Assembly (NCBI RefSeq): GCF_001011115.1
Contig: NZ_CP008874.1
Span: 1,688,440 to 1,752,439, forward strand
DNA length: 64,000 nucleotides
Source of the DNA: Halanaeroarchaeum sulfurireducens
Lineage (GTDB): Archaea; Halobacteriota; Halobacteria; Halobacteriales; Halobacteriaceae
Direction: 5' to 3'
Position 1 is the first letter of the stretch. Every line of letters starts with the position of its first letter. Both the position numbers and the translations under genes were made by a program. Of this stretch, positions 1,543 to 30,193 are shown one piece after another. A model generated the notes under the pieces. That model saw only the letters and a list, made by a program, of their open reading frames with translations, was not told the DNA's origin and ran no database searches.

Positions 1543-2565
1543 ATGGAGCTCATTGACAGTTTCGACCATCAGACGGGCGTTCACTGCGGAGCGGCCGCGA
1601 TCCGAAACCTCACGCGCCATTACGGCTGGCAATACTCCGAAGCGGCGAGTTTCGGCATCGGCGGGGGACCGGCGTTCCTCCAGTACACGACCCCTGAGAG
1701 CGCCTGGGCGCGCGTGCGGACCAGCCCAATCTGGCTCGTGCGCGCCTTCTTCGAGCGGACCGGGATCCCACACCTGTCGCGATCGGGCGACGACTTCACC
1801 GTCGCCTGGGAGAACGTCGCCGCCAGGATCGAGCACGACGACCCGGTGGTCGTGTTTCTCGATCCGGAGCGACTGGGGTATCTGTCCGCTGAACCGGCCC
1901 ACCTACCGCCCCACGTAGCCGTCGCCATCGGCTACGACGACGATTCCGTGATCCTCTCCGATGCCGCCGTCGAAGAGCGCCAAGAGGTCGCCCTGGAAAC
2001 GTTGCAGGAGGCCTGGTCGCAGGACGGGATCGTCCCAATGGAGAACGAATATCTTGTCGTGACCCGGTCGTCGATCACAGAGGACGGCACCGACGCAGTC
2101 GCCGCCGGACTCCGGCAGACGGCGACGTACATGGTCGACCCGGTCCAGGTCGAACGGAACGCCCGCGGGGCGGCCAATGAGGGAATCGCCGCCCTCCACG
2201 GCTTCGCCGACACCCTCGGCGCGTGGGCGGATCTGGCCGACCCGGAGATGCCCGTCCGGGCTGCGAGGCGAGCCATCGACGAACACGGGGAGGGTGCGGC
2301 GTTTCGTGGACTCTACGCGGACTCGCTCGAGGAGCTGGGTCGGCGCACCGATCTGTCCCCCGAACTCGCGGGCCGGATGAACAGCGTCGCGGGGGAGTGG
2401 CGCCGCGTCGCGGACATGCTCGACGACATCCTGACGGAAGAGGGGCGCCGGCCCGCCACCTTCGAGGAAACGGCGAGTCTCGTCGTGAGCATTGCGGACA
2501 GCGAGGCTGCCATCTTCGATGACCTCGCGACGGAACTCGGAAAGTCAGGTACCCTGGAGGGGTGA
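1543..2565 (+). CDS. BtrH N-terminal domain protein (papain-like fold, acyltransferase-like)
   Basis: This 340-residue protein starts with an FDHQTGVHCGAAAIRNL motif, the conserved Cys region of the BtrH N-terminal family. It is followed by GIGGGPAF and by PHVAVAIGYDDDSVILSDA, a cysteine-peptidase-like His block. BtrH moves an acyl group from a carrier protein to an aminoglycoside in butirosin synthesis; relatives with a DUF4872-type helical tail are found in many genomes without a known substrate. Residues 190-340 are helical and resemble that tail. No carrier protein or biosynthetic gene is nearby, so the substrate is unknown. The ATG lies about 26 bp after a promoter-like element, which supports a leaderless start. 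Confidence 0.75.
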   Translation: MELIDSFDHQTGVHCGAAAIRNLTRHYGWQYSEAASFGIGGGPAFLQYTTPESAWARVRTSPIWLVRAFFERTGIPHLSRSGDDFTVAWENVAARIEHDDPVVVFLDPERLGYLSAEPAHLPPHVAVAIGYDDDSVILSDAAVEERQEVALETLQEAWSQDGIVPMENEYLVVTRSSITEDGTDAVAAGLRQTATYMVDPVQVERNARGAANEGIAALHGFADTLGAWADLADPEMPVRAARRAIDEHGEGAAFRGLYADSLEELGRRTDLSPELAGRMNSVAGEWRRVADMLDDILTEEGRRPATFEETASLVVSIADSEAAIFDDLATELGKSGTLEG

Positions 2566-2686
2566 GAGGCGGGGATCCGGCGACACCCACCGTACCAGAT
2601 GAATGGATATTCCCGTCTGGAGGGGCGATATCTTCAGCAATGGGACCATCGAATCCGCGGGCAAGCCGTCGCGAGGTGAGACGGCG

Positions 2687-3121
2687 ATGAATCCAAACCG
2701 AGTCGACTTCCTCGTCGATCTCGTGTACGGACTGACGATCTTCGTCGCGATCGGGCTGATCCTCTTCGTCGAAACGGGCGTGGGCATCGCGTTCGGGATG
2801 GGAGTCCTGATCTCGTACGTCATCCACATCGCCTGGAAGATGGCCCGGTTCGACCCCGACTGGATGACCCGGGAGGTCGCTGAGCGCGTCGAGGAGACGG
2901 TCAGCAAAGAAGTCGAGGAAACCGTGACCAGGGAGGTCGAGGAGACGGTCAGCGATACGGTCCACGACGAGATGGACGAAGTCGCCGAGAAGGTGGGCGA
3001 GACGGTCAAGGAGGAAGTTACCGAAGACGTCGAGCGGGCAGTCGGCGAGGAGGTAGAGAAAGTGGTCAGCGGGGACGAAAAGACCGCCACCCGATCCGAG
3101 GAGACGGACGAGGAGTCGTAA
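2687..3121 (+). CDS. membrane-anchored coiled-coil protein, haloarchaeal hypothetical
   Basis: The 144-residue protein has two hydrophobic segments (about residues 8-28 and 30-48). A long, very acidic amphipathic region follows, built of imperfect repeats of the form EEVEETV / VAERVEETVSKEVEE, and is probably a cytoplasmic coiled coil. An upstream ATG at 2603 is in frame, but MNPNRVDFL at 2687 directly precedes the first membrane helix and is the more likely start. The function is not recognised. It lies between the BtrH-like gene and trkA, with a separate promoter for trkA after it. Confidence 0.65.
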   Translation: MNPNRVDFLVDLVYGLTIFVAIGLILFVETGVGIAFGMGVLISYVIHIAWKMARFDPDWMTREVAERVEETVSKEVEETVTREVEETVSDTVHDEMDEVAEKVGETVKEEVTEDVERAVGEEVEKVVSGDEKTATRSEETDEES

Positions 3122-13976: not shown

Positions 13977-14462
13977 TACCTGATCCGACCTGCGATGAGC
14001 GAATTAGCTCTCCGTCGTCTCCGCGATATCGTTGCCGTCGAAACCCCAGGAGGGCCATCGAAACGGGAGCGACCAGGTCTGCCGGTCGGACATCGCATGC
14101 ATCGATGAATGCACGCGTATCTCTCGTTTACACGAGCGACAACGGATTCCCTGTCACCGCTGCATCAATTGACGGGTGCCATATATTTGGGGCGGAGAGC
14201 TTCTACCGCCAGAAAATCAGTGTCAGACTCCCGAGGACCCACGTTTTGCTGTGCCTCCATGAACTGAATTTTGGACGGTGTTTCTGACAATATTCGAATG
14301 AATGGGATCTGTCGATGCTAACCAGAACGCACAAATTCATCAGGGGATTTCTCCGACAGTCGGATGGTCGAGGCACGTTCAGCGATTTGTCTCAACCATG
14401 ATCGATAAATGCCTGTCTGCTCATCCCCCATTTCTTTTATATTGGGTCTCCAAGATGTGCAT
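13977..14462. other. intergenic region between two kinase genes, no supported gene
   Basis: This 486-bp stretch is more AT-rich than its neighbours. Short open frames exist (for example about 13973-14287), but they lack haloarchaeal acidic codon use or any motif. It holds the promoter of the PAS kinase at its right end. Confidence 0.5.
14435..14442 (+). promoter_or_regulatory. TATA box of the multi-PAS kinase gene
   Basis: TTTTATAT is centred about 25 bp before the ATG at 14463. This implies a leaderless transcript and rules against the upstream in-frame ATG at 14409. Confidence 0.55.
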
Positions 14463-16610
14463 ATGGCCAATAATTCGAATGCGGATTCGAATCCGACTAC
14501 CCCATCCTCATCTAAGGGATCTCTCCGGGATTTTGTCCCTCATCCGTATCACTCGCTCAATAGTGACGGGGAGATTCTCTCCGTCAACGACGCCTGGATT
14601 GATCTATTAGGGTATGAACGAGATGAGGTGGAGGGTCGCTGGTTCGGCGAGTTCCTCGCAAATGACTCCGTCGAAGAGTTCGAGTCTCGATTTTCAGAGT
14701 TGCAATCGACTGACGGTGTCTCGAACGTCGAATTCGAAATGCAGTGTGCAGACGGTGATACGATAATCGTCTCCTGCGACGGAATACCCGAATACGACGA
14801 CGGTGATTTCGTCCGAGGACATTGTCAATTTGCAGATATTACTGAACTAAAGGAACGAGCACGGGAATTGCGGCAGTTCGAACGGCTGACGAACTCGATG
14901 CTTGAATCTGCCGTCATCTATGACGACGCTGGGCGATTTGTAACCGTTAATACGCACCTGGCTAACTGGTATGAGACGACACCAGACGATCTCGAAGGGA
15001 CAGATAGCAACCTCATTCCACTCATCCAAGAGCAATATGATGGTGATCCGTATCAGGAATTACTTGACGGTGAGCGGGAGGAACTACAAGGCAGAGTTGA
15101 AGCCAATTTTCCTGGACATGGCCACGCTGTCTTGGAATTTCGACTTACTCCACTGAAAGTAGATGGATCTATCGAAGGGGTCGTCGGTGTCACGCGGGAC
15201 ATTACAAAGCGCGCGGAGCGCGAACGCGAAATTCGTCGAGCCCGGGAAGAATATCAGGAATTGGTTAACGGGATGAACGATACGGCATGGGTTATAGATC
15301 ACACCGGTGATTTTCTCGCCGTGAATGACGCTGCTGTGGAAAAGTTGGGATATACGAGAGAGGAGTTGACCGCCATGTCGGCGTACGAAATCGATGCAAG
15401 TCTCGACGATGGTGAGATCGCGGACCTTATCGAGAGTATGCCGGAAGACGAGGTGCAGGTGTTCGAAACCGTGCATCGAGCGAAAAACGGCGAGGAGATT
15501 CCGGTCGAGATCAGTTCGACCCTGATTTCCTACCGGGGTGAGTCAGCGATACTGAGCATTGCCCGTGATATAACTCAGCGAAAACGACAGGAGCGTGATT
15601 TGCAGCGGCAAAAACGCCGTTATGAATCGCTGTTTAACAGCATTCGAGACGCAATTCTGGTCGCCGACACGAATAGACGTATCATCAACTGCAATCCAGC
15701 GTTTACAGACCTCTTCGGGTACGAACTTCAAGAGATTGAGGAAAAACCCACCCAGTACGTGTACGAAAGCGGGAAGCAGTTTGAGGCAATGGGCGAGGCG
15801 CTGGAGGGCCACATTGACGATCCAGAGTTCACGCAAACGATCTCGTACGAAAAGAAATCCGGACAGACGTTCCCAGGCGAGACGAACGCGTCCTATTTCC
15901 GAGATGCAGACGGCGAGATCATCGGCTTCATCGGTATCATCCGGGACATTACGGGGCGAATCGAACGTCTCAGACAATTACAGATGGTGGATCGAATTCT
16001 CCAACACAACTTCAATAATGACATGAACGTCATCGAGGGCTATGCGGAGAATATTGAAGATGTCACAACTGGTGAGATAGCGACCTACGCCGAGAAAATC
16101 CTCGAAAGTAGCCAGAAATTGCTACAAACCGTCGAGAAAGAACACGACGTGACTGAGTTCCTCGCCAGTCAACAGGAAACGACGACACTCGTGATCGGGT
16201 CGGAAGTAAAGACACTCGTTTCCGACATGCGAGAGAGGTACCCGGACGCAGAAATCTCCACGAAAATACGGAGCGAGGCCGCTGCTCGGGCAGTGCCAGA
16301 AATCACTCTCGCCATTAAAGAACTTCTTCAGAACGCAATCATCCATGCAAAAAGTGATACTCCCCAGATTCGGGTGCAGGTTGACGCAGATGACGAAGCC
16401 CTCAAGATTAGCGTCTCCGATACGAACCCGCATATCCCGGAGATGGAGCGAAAGGTCCTCCTCGAGGGTGAAGAAGTGGCGCCACTGTATCACGGGAGTG
16501 GCATCGGCCTCTGGCTCGTCAATCTGGTGGTCACTCATTCAGATGGGATAGTAGAAGTGGAGGCGACCGAGCCACAGGGGAACGAGGTTATCATTCGACT
16601 CCCAAACTGA
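14463..16610 (+). CDS. soluble multi-PAS sensor histidine kinase
   Basis: The 715-residue protein has no clear membrane segment. Four PAS-like units follow one another: around 25-130 (SLNSDGEILSVNDAWIDLLGY), 140-255, 265-385 (DHTGDFLAVNDAAVEKLGY) and 390-510 (DTNRRIINCNPAFTDLFGY). The His motif ILQHNFNNDMNVIEGYAENI comes near residue 512, then HATPase with EITLAIKELLQNAIIHA and SGIGLWLVNLVV. The G1 box reads VSDTNPHIPEME, losing the usual DNGPGIP sequence, as is common in haloarchaeal kinases. Codon use is more AT-rich than in the genes around it, so it may be a later arrival. Its partner response regulator is not in the window. Confidence 0.88.
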   Translation: MANNSNADSNPTTPSSSKGSLRDFVPHPYHSLNSDGEILSVNDAWIDLLGYERDEVEGRWFGEFLANDSVEEFESRFSELQSTDGVSNVEFEMQCADGDTIIVSCDGIPEYDDGDFVRGHCQFADITELKERARELRQFERLTNSMLESAVIYDDAGRFVTVNTHLANWYETTPDDLEGTDSNLIPLIQEQYDGDPYQELLDGEREELQGRVEANFPGHGHAVLEFRLTPLKVDGSIEGVVGVTRDITKRAEREREIRRAREEYQELVNGMNDTAWVIDHTGDFLAVNDAAVEKLGYTREELTAMSAYEIDASLDDGEIADLIESMPEDEVQVFETVHRAKNGEEIPVEISSTLISYRGESAILSIARDITQRKRQERDLQRQKRRYESLFNSIRDAILVADTNRRIINCNPAFTDLFGYELQEIEEKPTQYVYESGKQFEAMGEALEGHIDDPEFTQTISYEKKSGQTFPGETNASYFRDADGEIIGFIGIIRDITGRIERLRQLQMVDRILQHNFNNDMNVIEGYAENIEDVTTGEIATYAEKILESSQKLLQTVEKEHDVTEFLASQQETTTLVIGSEVKTLVSDMRERYPDAEISTKIRSEAAARAVPEITLAIKELLQNAIIHAKSDTPQIRVQVDADDEALKISVSDTNPHIPEMERKVLLEGEEVAPLYHGSGIGLWLVNLVVTHSDGIVEVEATEPQGNEVIIRLPN

Positions 16611-29127: not shown

Positions 29128-29382
29128 TCAGAACACCCCGATTCGCGAGGCGACGTCCTGGGCGTCGTCCTCCTCGGATAGCGTGACGATTGCTTTTTTC
29201 GTTCCCTGCATCGTGACCATCGTGTTCACGTCGACGACCGAGACATCGTAACTGTCCTCGACCTCGTCGCGAATCTCCGGTTTCGCGGCGTCGAGGTCCA
29301 CGACGAACTGGAGTTTGTTGTGGAAGTCCATCGCGTTCATCGCTTTCTCGGTGACCAGCGGATAGTCGATAACCGAAGTCAT
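29128..29382 (-). CDS. rpl23: 50S ribosomal protein uL23
   Basis: The 84-residue archaeal L23, with VIDYPLVTEKAMNAMDFHNK and VVDVNTMVTMQGTKKAIVTL, forms the docking site for SRP and nascent-chain factors at the tunnel exit. Its ATG overlaps the stop of a 21-codon open frame (ATGA) that separates it from rpl4. Confidence 0.96.
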   Translation of the reverse strand: MTSVIDYPLVTEKAMNAMDFHNKLQFVVDLDAAKPEIRDEVEDSYDVSVVDVNTMVTMQGTKKAIVTLSEEDDAQDVASRIGVF

Positions 29383-29444
29383 CGGCTCTCACCCCCGGTG
29401 AGAACGATGACGTCGTCGCGCGCGCTGCGTGCGACGGGAGTCAT
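29379..29444 (-). CDS. 21-residue micro-ORF between rpl4 and rpl23
   Basis: The frame encodes MTPVARSARDDVIVLTGGES plus a final Arg. Its ATG overlaps the rpl4 stop as ATGA (29441-29444) and its own TGA overlaps the rpl23 ATG as ATGA (29379-29382). This double coupling is the same arrangement used by true genes in this operon. The product resembles no protein I know. It may be a real microprotein, or a bridging frame that keeps ribosomes moving from rpl4 to rpl23; a chance frame of 22 codons in a GC-rich gap is also possible. Confidence 0.4.
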   Translation of the reverse strand: MTPVARSARDDVIVLTGGESR

Positions 29445-30193
29445 CGCTCGGCCACCTCCGCGATGGCGCTCTCGGTCCAGATCGTCAGCCGGCCCGGTTC
29501 GCCACCTGGCGCGAGGTCCTCTGCGTTCACTTCGGCGCCCGTGGCGACGTCGGCACCCGCAAGGTTGCGGGCGGCCTTCGACGGCCCGGAGTCACTCGAC
29601 GTGACGAAGAGGATCGATGTGGGGCGGCGGTACTTGCGGCCGCGAAGTTTGCCCTGACCCGCCCGAACCGTCTTGCCGTCGTCGGCGCGCTCGATGTCGG
29701 CGTGAACGCCGAGCGTCTCGAGCAGCGAGACGACGTCTTTGGTCTTCACGAGGTCCTCGAACTCGTCGATGACGACCAGCGGCAGTTCGAGGTCGTCCTC
29801 GAACTGGTGACCGCGGTCGGCCACGAGGTCGGCGTCGGTGGTCGCCGCGATGGCGCTTCGGACGGCCGACTTCCGCTCTTTGTCGTTGACGGACAGCGAC
29901 TGGTCTTTCTCGGTTTTCGGCGGATGGGCCTTGCGGCCACCGACGGCCTGGGGCACGCGAGCGGCCCGCCCGTTCACTGTTGGAACGTGGGCCATACCGC
30001 GACCACTGCCGGGCGACTCTGCGGACGTTCGCATTCCCGCGAACTCGTCGGCGCCGTAATCCTGCTTCCGGTTTGCCTGGGCGGCGAGGACGGCCCGACG
30101 GGTCAGGTCGGGTCGAACCGGTGTTTCGAACACCGACGGTAGCTCCGTGCTACCTGCATCCTCGCCGTCCAGATCTCGTACTGTTGCCTGCAT
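29441..30193 (-). CDS. rpl4: 50S ribosomal protein uL4
   Basis: The 250-residue protein has the archaeal signature around GSGRGMAHVPTVNGRAARVP, which forms the tunnel-lining loop, and GKLRGRKYRRPTSILFVTSS. It starts 3 bp after rpl3. Unlike other junctions, its stop does not touch rpl23; 58 bp holding a micro-ORF lie between them. Confidence 0.96.
   Translation of the reverse strand: MQATVRDLDGEDAGSTELPSVFETPVRPDLTRRAVLAAQANRKQDYGADEFAGMRTSAESPGSGRGMAHVPTVNGRAARVPQAVGGRKAHPPKTEKDQSLSVNDKERKSAVRSAIAATTDADLVADRGHQFEDDLELPLVVIDEFEDLVKTKDVVSLLETLGVHADIERADDGKTVRAGQGKLRGRKYRRPTSILFVTSSDSGPSKAARNLAGADVATGAEVNAEDLAPGGEPGRLTIWTESAIAEVAER

Follow-up and report, generated by a model that had tools for sequence, protein, structure and literature searches.

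Why should two ribosomal protein genes that are usually joined by a single ATGA be separated in Halanaeroarchaeum sulfurireducens by 58 bases (29383-29440), and why should those bases hold a 21-codon open frame that overlaps both the stop codon of rpl4 and the start codon of rpl23? The question arose in a window of 64,000 nucleotides (the whole stretch of DNA that was analysed; contig NZ_CP008874.1, positions 1,688,440 to 1,752,439), the minus strand of which carries rpl3, rpl4, rpl23 and rpl2 in that order (Pfam: L3, L4, L23, L2). An original prediction, made by a model from the letters of the window, described a minus-strand frame at 29444-29379, ATGA-coupled at both ends, in a 58-bp gap, and the frames and gene boundaries confirm both points. 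We consider it very probable that this frame is part of a 62-bp haloarchaeal element inserted into an ATGA overlap, and that it relays termination-reinitiation from rpl4 to rpl23. That the gap is a copy of a dispersed element goes beyond the original prediction. The locus consists of the following parts:

29379..29444, minus strand: relay element, a 62-bp unit plus the shared ATGA, with the 21-codon frame MTPVARSARDDVIVLTGGESR ending in a stop codon
29441..29444, minus strand: first ATGA, in which the rpl4 TGA overlaps the ATG of the mini-frame
29414..29436, minus strand: hairpin 1, element nt 9-31, with a frequent A.C mismatch
29407..29410, minus strand: TCAT, nt 35-38, the complement of both ATGAs, for which pairing with nt 1-4 or nt 63-66 is possible
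29387..29403, minus strand: hairpin 2, nt 42-58, stem CTCACC/GGTGAG
nt 35-40/61-66, minus strand: outer stem, which prolongs hairpin 2 across the rpl23 AUG
29389..29396, minus strand: Shine-Dalgarno site of rpl23, GGGGGTGA, within hairpin 2
29379..29382, minus strand: second ATGA, in which the stop of the mini-frame overlaps the rpl23 start
29441..30193, minus strand: rpl4, the upstream gene (PF00573), with its TGA (29443-29441) inside the ATGA at 29444-29441
3' end of rpl4, minus strand: GGAGGTGGCCGAGCGATGA, which supplies the Shine-Dalgarno site of the mini-frame
29128..29382, minus strand: rpl23, the downstream gene (PF00276), with its ATG (29382-29380) inside the ATGA at 29382-29379

The 16S 3' end (...GGATCACCTCCT) has one occurrence in the H. 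sulfurireducens genome.

Comparison with relatives showed that the gap is an insertion. As the original prediction had supposed, rpl4 and rpl23 are usually adjacent: the insert is absent, and one ATGA joins the genes, in 24 of 26 family genomes, the exceptions being the window genome and G025. Both exceptions have a congener that lacks the insert (G001 and G024, respectively). The inserted DNA corresponds to exactly one unit, with an ATGA on either side. Among 17 named haloarchaeal loci (L002-L018, which include some species also present among the G genomes), only the copy in a metagenome-assembled genome, L014, has an insert at rpl4/rpl23, which is 56 bp long and diverged. The etfB/etfA junction gives a similar picture, empty at 21 of 23 family loci and filled in G010 and G014. 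The rpl4 and rpl23 boundaries of the window match those of relatives. The suggestion in the original prediction that the frame might be a remnant of an extended rpl4 or rpl23 did not stand, as insert-free relatives have the same gene ends and one ATGA. An upstream extension of rpl23 was tried and rejected; the gene cannot reach further upstream because an in-frame stop lies two codons ahead of its ATG.

The element forms a family that extends well beyond this junction. A search of 392 Halobacteriales genomes for a 23-nt hairpin-2 pattern (at most 2 mismatches) located 21 places in 20 of them, and the backward control scored 0 in every row. On reading the DNA, these places resolved into 14 full elements, at rpl4/rpl23, etfB/etfA, rpl2/rps19 and trpB/trpA, and 7 chance matches. 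Covariance models were then built from 13 copies (R1) and 41 copies (R2). At E <= 1e-4, R2 gave 74 matches in 58 of the 392 genomes, representing 31 of 95 genera and 10 of 17 listed families; R1 matches up to E 0.05 (183 of 392 genomes) were mostly chance and were not counted. The window copy is a full-length match to both R1 (E 1.5e-27) and R2 (6.2e-21), and is a member of both training sets. A phylum search found the element in 8 of 294 genomes, all of the same order, with the number of the 294 outside that order not shown.

Flanks were inspected for 70 R1 matches (together with L014) and 19 more R2 matches, and gene pairs were named from them, with one example of each backed by Pfam wherever there was a family match. 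About 20 kinds of gene pair carry the element. Among the 74 R2 matches, 4 of which have no assigned pair, the most frequent hosts were etfB/etfA (19), rpl4/rpl23 (13), rpl2/rps19 (8), argB/argD (4) and MoeA pairs (3). Two copies each were found at trpB/trpA, metE-type pairs, ABC ATPase/permease, permease pairs, secF/secD, leuC/leuD-type, thiolase/OB-fold and an RPA-type operon, and single copies at gatC/gatA, nuoB/nuoCD-type, sucC/sucD, purQ, argC/argB, rpl24e/ndk and a TgpA-type gene. Identity reaches 91% between copies at different gene pairs, whereas copies at the same pair across families average 67%, which fits dispersal rather than one old insertion. One copy lies between etfB and etfA on the Natrarchaeobaculum sulfurireducens plasmid pAArc1-02, in a gap without a listed feature, although the gene table is incomplete.

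No second copy was found in the H. sulfurireducens genome with R2 at E <= 1e-4. With a looser pattern there were 5 hits in this genome and 3 for the backward control; two of the 5 hits are leader frames that keep the frame and follow no upstream gene. One (L198, G000:C1:110946-111002, plus strand) has 18 codons and is RTGA-coupled to a 193-codon open frame; the other (L199, G000:C1:292675-292746, minus strand) has 23 codons and is RTGA-coupled to a 333-codon open frame; neither has a long upstream frame. It is possible that these are single-sided relay leaders. A viral origin received no support, with 0 hits for a 24-nt exact pattern in IMG/VR and no blastn match for the 66-nt sequence in 50,697 phage records. 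No Rfam family matched window positions 29300-29520; the best score was 14.7 bits, where the gathering score is 69.

The reading frame is conserved across the family. With coding frames called by codon-position GC, coupling at both ends was observed in 69 of the 74 R2 matches, in 29 of the 33 copies outside model training, and in 22 of the 26 copies with a length other than 66 nt. The five R2 matches without it are L115, L120, L151, L166 and L167. The frame is thus kept at 63, 69, 75, 78, 84, 87, 90, 99 and 114 nt, and at 60 nt in L014. The original prediction would have failed had relatives kept the gap while stops or a shift broke its frame; this was checked, and the frame proved to be retained at these other lengths too. 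Of 70 copies called double-coupled in one frame call, 47 have a 21-codon frame and the rest have 19-37 codons. Units may also follow one another: at the metE-type junction of L143 (L196, G103), two nearly identical 62-nt units stand in tandem, and L164/L195 (G061) has a chain of three coupled mini-frames ahead of a gene. L166/L194 (G052), which is not double-coupled, is likewise a chain of mini-frames. In the 114-nt copies at argB/argD of L133 and L134 (f14 genomes), hairpin 1 and the Shine-Dalgarno site are separated by an additional palindrome, and the frame is kept.

These features led us to a model of how the element would work. Because it begins and ends with an ATGA overlap, the relay cistron would be coupled to rpl4 on one side and to rpl23 on the other. 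A ribosome finishing rpl4 at the UGA would reinitiate on the overlapping AUG of the mini-frame, read 21 codons, melting hairpin 1 and then hairpin 2, stop at the second UGA and reinitiate on rpl23. Without a passing ribosome, the rpl23 Shine-Dalgarno site and AUG would sit in hairpin 2. In three gene pairs tested in Haloferax volcanii, reinitiation is abolished when the genes lie 22-23 nt apart, and in Escherichia coli the final 15 nt of the upstream gene are sufficient in two pairs (PMC10666635). Given the effect of 22-23-nt gaps, a frameless 58-nt insert should uncouple the genes, and a double-coupled 21-codon frame should keep them coupled. Since the relay depends on the passage of ribosomes, the ends, the frame and the RNA fold would be under purifying selection, and the peptide would not.

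The RNA fold was assessed in alignment A3, which holds 41 gap-free 66-mers selected by us. Changes on both sides of a pair were found in 8 of 9 pairs of hairpin 1 and in 5 of 13 pairs of hairpin 2 and the outer stem. The covariation score was 0.314 against 0.114 for shuffled alignments and 0.051-0.104 for slid versions; 0 of 500 shuffles reached it, a figure that is no probability because the copies are related. The two hairpins covary strongly. For the window element, the predicted fold has an energy of -33.6 kcal/mol (z -3.26), and is predicted to hide the Shine-Dalgarno site and AUG of rpl23.

The RNA fold also figures in a different reading, in which the element is a cis-acting RNA switch selected to set the ratio of two subunits: TCAT would pair with either the first or the second AUGA, the fold would open or close the downstream gene, and mobility would be secondary or ancient. 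Both of these mutually exclusive pairings covary. For the first AUGA, the column pair 5-34 is G-C in 17 and C-G in 16 of the 41 copies; for the second, there are both-side changes at 39-62 in 13 copies and at 40-61 in 8. The predicted minimum-energy folds of 8 copies are split, 6 favouring the second pairing and 2 the first, and many of the gene pairs encode subunits of a complex. However, genes for complex subunits are enriched in overlapping pairs anyway (PMC10666635), the element is patchy even among congeners, and near-identical copies at unrelated genes are ill-suited to one regulatory input. We regard the switch as a credible minority possibility. A tentative combination, slightly less probable in our view, is a mobile bistable RNA gate, in which TCAT toggles between the AUGAs, so that only ribosomes coming from the upstream gene find the downstream gene open, and the same TCAT-ATGA complementarity guides insertion into start/stop overlaps. 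If this were true, a selfish element would have made translational coupling its integration niche, independently of the mycobacterial interspersed repetitive units (MIRUs).

How the element might move was approached through its ends. In 57 of 64 copies, against 27.8 expected, the two RTGAs are followed by the same base; when copies are compared within gene context, 38 of 44 agree, against 24.2 expected (0 of 2000 shuffles reach this). The two bases also agree in 10 of 11 66-nt copies where neither pairs with column 34, so folding alone does not link them. RTGA plus one base resembles a short target duplication. For a longer duplication, offsets -2 and -1 agree overall (41/64 and 35/64), but within context only offset -2 does (30/44, p 0.011), and we therefore limit the claim to RTGA plus one base. 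This comparison omitted 11 R2 matches (L113, L119, L126, L133, L134, L159 and L164-L168), in which the ends were not RTGA on both sides, the copy was doubtful or it was part of a chain, and added L014.

An element transposed as a single strand, of the IS200/IS605 or palindrome-associated transposable element (PATE) type, would offer another route, with hairpins at the ends and TCAT as the guide to ATGA cleavage sites. Near-terminal palindromes, a trait of these elements, are present, terminal inverted repeats were not found, a guide-like TCAT precedes hairpin 2 and an ATGA follows it. Very short PATEs (52 bp), possibly mobile, are described in Haloquadratum (PMC3119063). Copies of the haloarchaeal element outside coupled junctions are nearly absent, and all 8 exact hairpin-2 matches in the 392 genomes lie within full elements. 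No longer parent element was seen with the hairpin-2 pattern in these genomes, although the pattern could miss diverged parents. The apparent duplication of the base after RTGA also speaks against this route, as the IS200/IS605 family is not known to make target duplications. We consider this origin unlikely.

The original prediction also offered a microprotein, and a conserved functional peptide translationally coupled to its neighbours would account for a consensus near MTSVARxARDDxIxLTGGESR that is recognizable across gene pairs. The ratio of non-synonymous to synonymous polymorphism (pN/pS) is 1.26 in the frame (41 copies); read in the two alternative frames it is 0.84 and 0.78. Variability is equal across codon positions (1.03, 1.05 and 0.92 bits). 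There is no sign of purifying selection on the peptide. Paired bases change together even where this alters residues, the peptides of diverged copies are unrelated, and no Pfam family matched the 21-codon peptide. A microprotein is accordingly very improbable, and of the three options in the original prediction it is the relay cistron that is well supported.

A scan of the window for frames of 12-45 codons with an open frame of 75 codons or more coupled to each end returned 13, among which the 21-codon frame alone combines an ATG start with a Shine-Dalgarno-like site; most of the other 12 have GTG starts and resemble chance frames of GC-rich DNA. Long open frames are common in such DNA, and the window has these 12 loose candidates, but the probability that the rpl4/rpl23 frame is a chance opening in a random 58-bp gap, which the original prediction had judged to be low, is negligible because the 66-nt double-coupled pattern recurs, with covariation, in dozens of genomes and gene pairs. 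Excision of an archaeal intron type, which would restore one ATGA, was considered as well.

Several points weigh against the relay. Double reinitiation could reduce rpl23 output, and the translation of the frame, the relay itself and dispersal by mobility are inferred from sequence. Since the ATG and TGA ends are conserved positions in both R1 and R2, the models are tilted towards coupled copies; less biased evidence comes from the retention of the frame at other lengths. Individual copies also depart from the pattern: L115 and L120 stop one codon early, leaving overlaps TGATG and TAATG; L151 starts 3 nt past the upstream stop (an 84-codon upstream frame at this locus was spurious, and was replaced on codon bias); L164 is preceded by another mini-frame; L167 is a chance match; and L126, although counted within the 69, lacks a clear upstream gene (codon bias 0.05). 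Terminal inverted repeats, the trait of miniature inverted-repeat transposable elements, were not found (3.9 of 15 matches against 4.6 shuffled; 15-mer, 41 copies). No autonomous partner or transposase was found, and no search aimed at transposases was made.

The closest parallel is with the MIRUs (Supply et al. 1997, as cited in the review PMC12548453), which form runs of several units at senX3-regX3, 53 and 77 bp in length (PMC4213456). Like a MIRU, the haloarchaeal element is short (62 bp) and contains a small open reading frame (ORF) whose start lies over the upstream stop and whose stop lies over the downstream start, as in the window and in 69 of 74 copies. It is spread across operon junctions in the orientation of the genes (about 20 kinds of gene pair, 10 families), and is inserted at the start/stop overlap with empty sites in relatives (rpl4/rpl23 and etfB/etfA). 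Tandem copies occur at L143 (two units), and none at rpl4/rpl23 of the window. The haloarchaeal element differs in its host, which is not mycobacterial, and in its two covarying hairpins with a Shine-Dalgarno site in the second. MIRUs are not known to have dyad symmetry, and the covarying hairpins may be a difference. We call the element MIRU-like, an archaeal counterpart in architecture, and do not claim MIRU membership. Searches of an open-access library, with few subscription papers or preprints in it, showed no archaeal case of such a relay.

Other systems share single traits. Rickettsia palindromic elements are palindromic and are kept in frame with the coding sequence inside genes, whereas the relay element is a separate cistron between genes. 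Termination-reinitiation in Haloferax volcanii, as described in PMC6728339 and PMC10666635, likewise involves ATGA overlaps and a Shine-Dalgarno site and requires overlap or a very short distance, but there the coupling is directly from gene to gene and here an inserted cistron would pass it on. In synthetic bicistronic designs with an upstream nonsense ORF (PMC13255528), a short meaningless ORF with the ribosome-binding site of the next gene inside it likewise delivers ribosomes; the haloarchaeal element is natural and dispersed, with genes on both flanks. PATEs and IS605-derived haloarchaeal elements are also small and palindromic, without a transposase or inverted terminal repeats (PMC3119063), whereas the relay element is confined to coupled junctions and has a conserved frame, and no link to IS605 ends was found.

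Three further observations concern the window and its genome. At 2562-2690 (plus strand), a 42-codon GTG frame overlaps an open frame of 348 codons upstream and one of 144 codons downstream, with GAGGTGA ahead of the second ATGA; it has no R2 match and is possibly a chance frame. Positions 14001-16000 have a GC content of 0.51, against about 0.64 across most of the window. The first 6 kb of a 124-kb plasmid (G000:C2, L193) align with haloarchaeal plasmid stretches bearing BREX genes (BrxA/BrxB).

The relay remains the best-supported reading of the rpl4/rpl23 gap, and is of interest for both archaeal translation and mobile elements. It would extend the MIRU idea, of a repeat that survives in operons by means of its own coupled cistron, to archaea and to core operons such as those of ribosomal proteins, with clear RNA covariation. 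Close species pairs with and without the relay at the same junction provide a natural test of termination-reinitiation. The family also illustrates that what keeps a reading frame conserved can be its being translated and not the peptide, which is relevant to the annotation of small ORFs as proteins.
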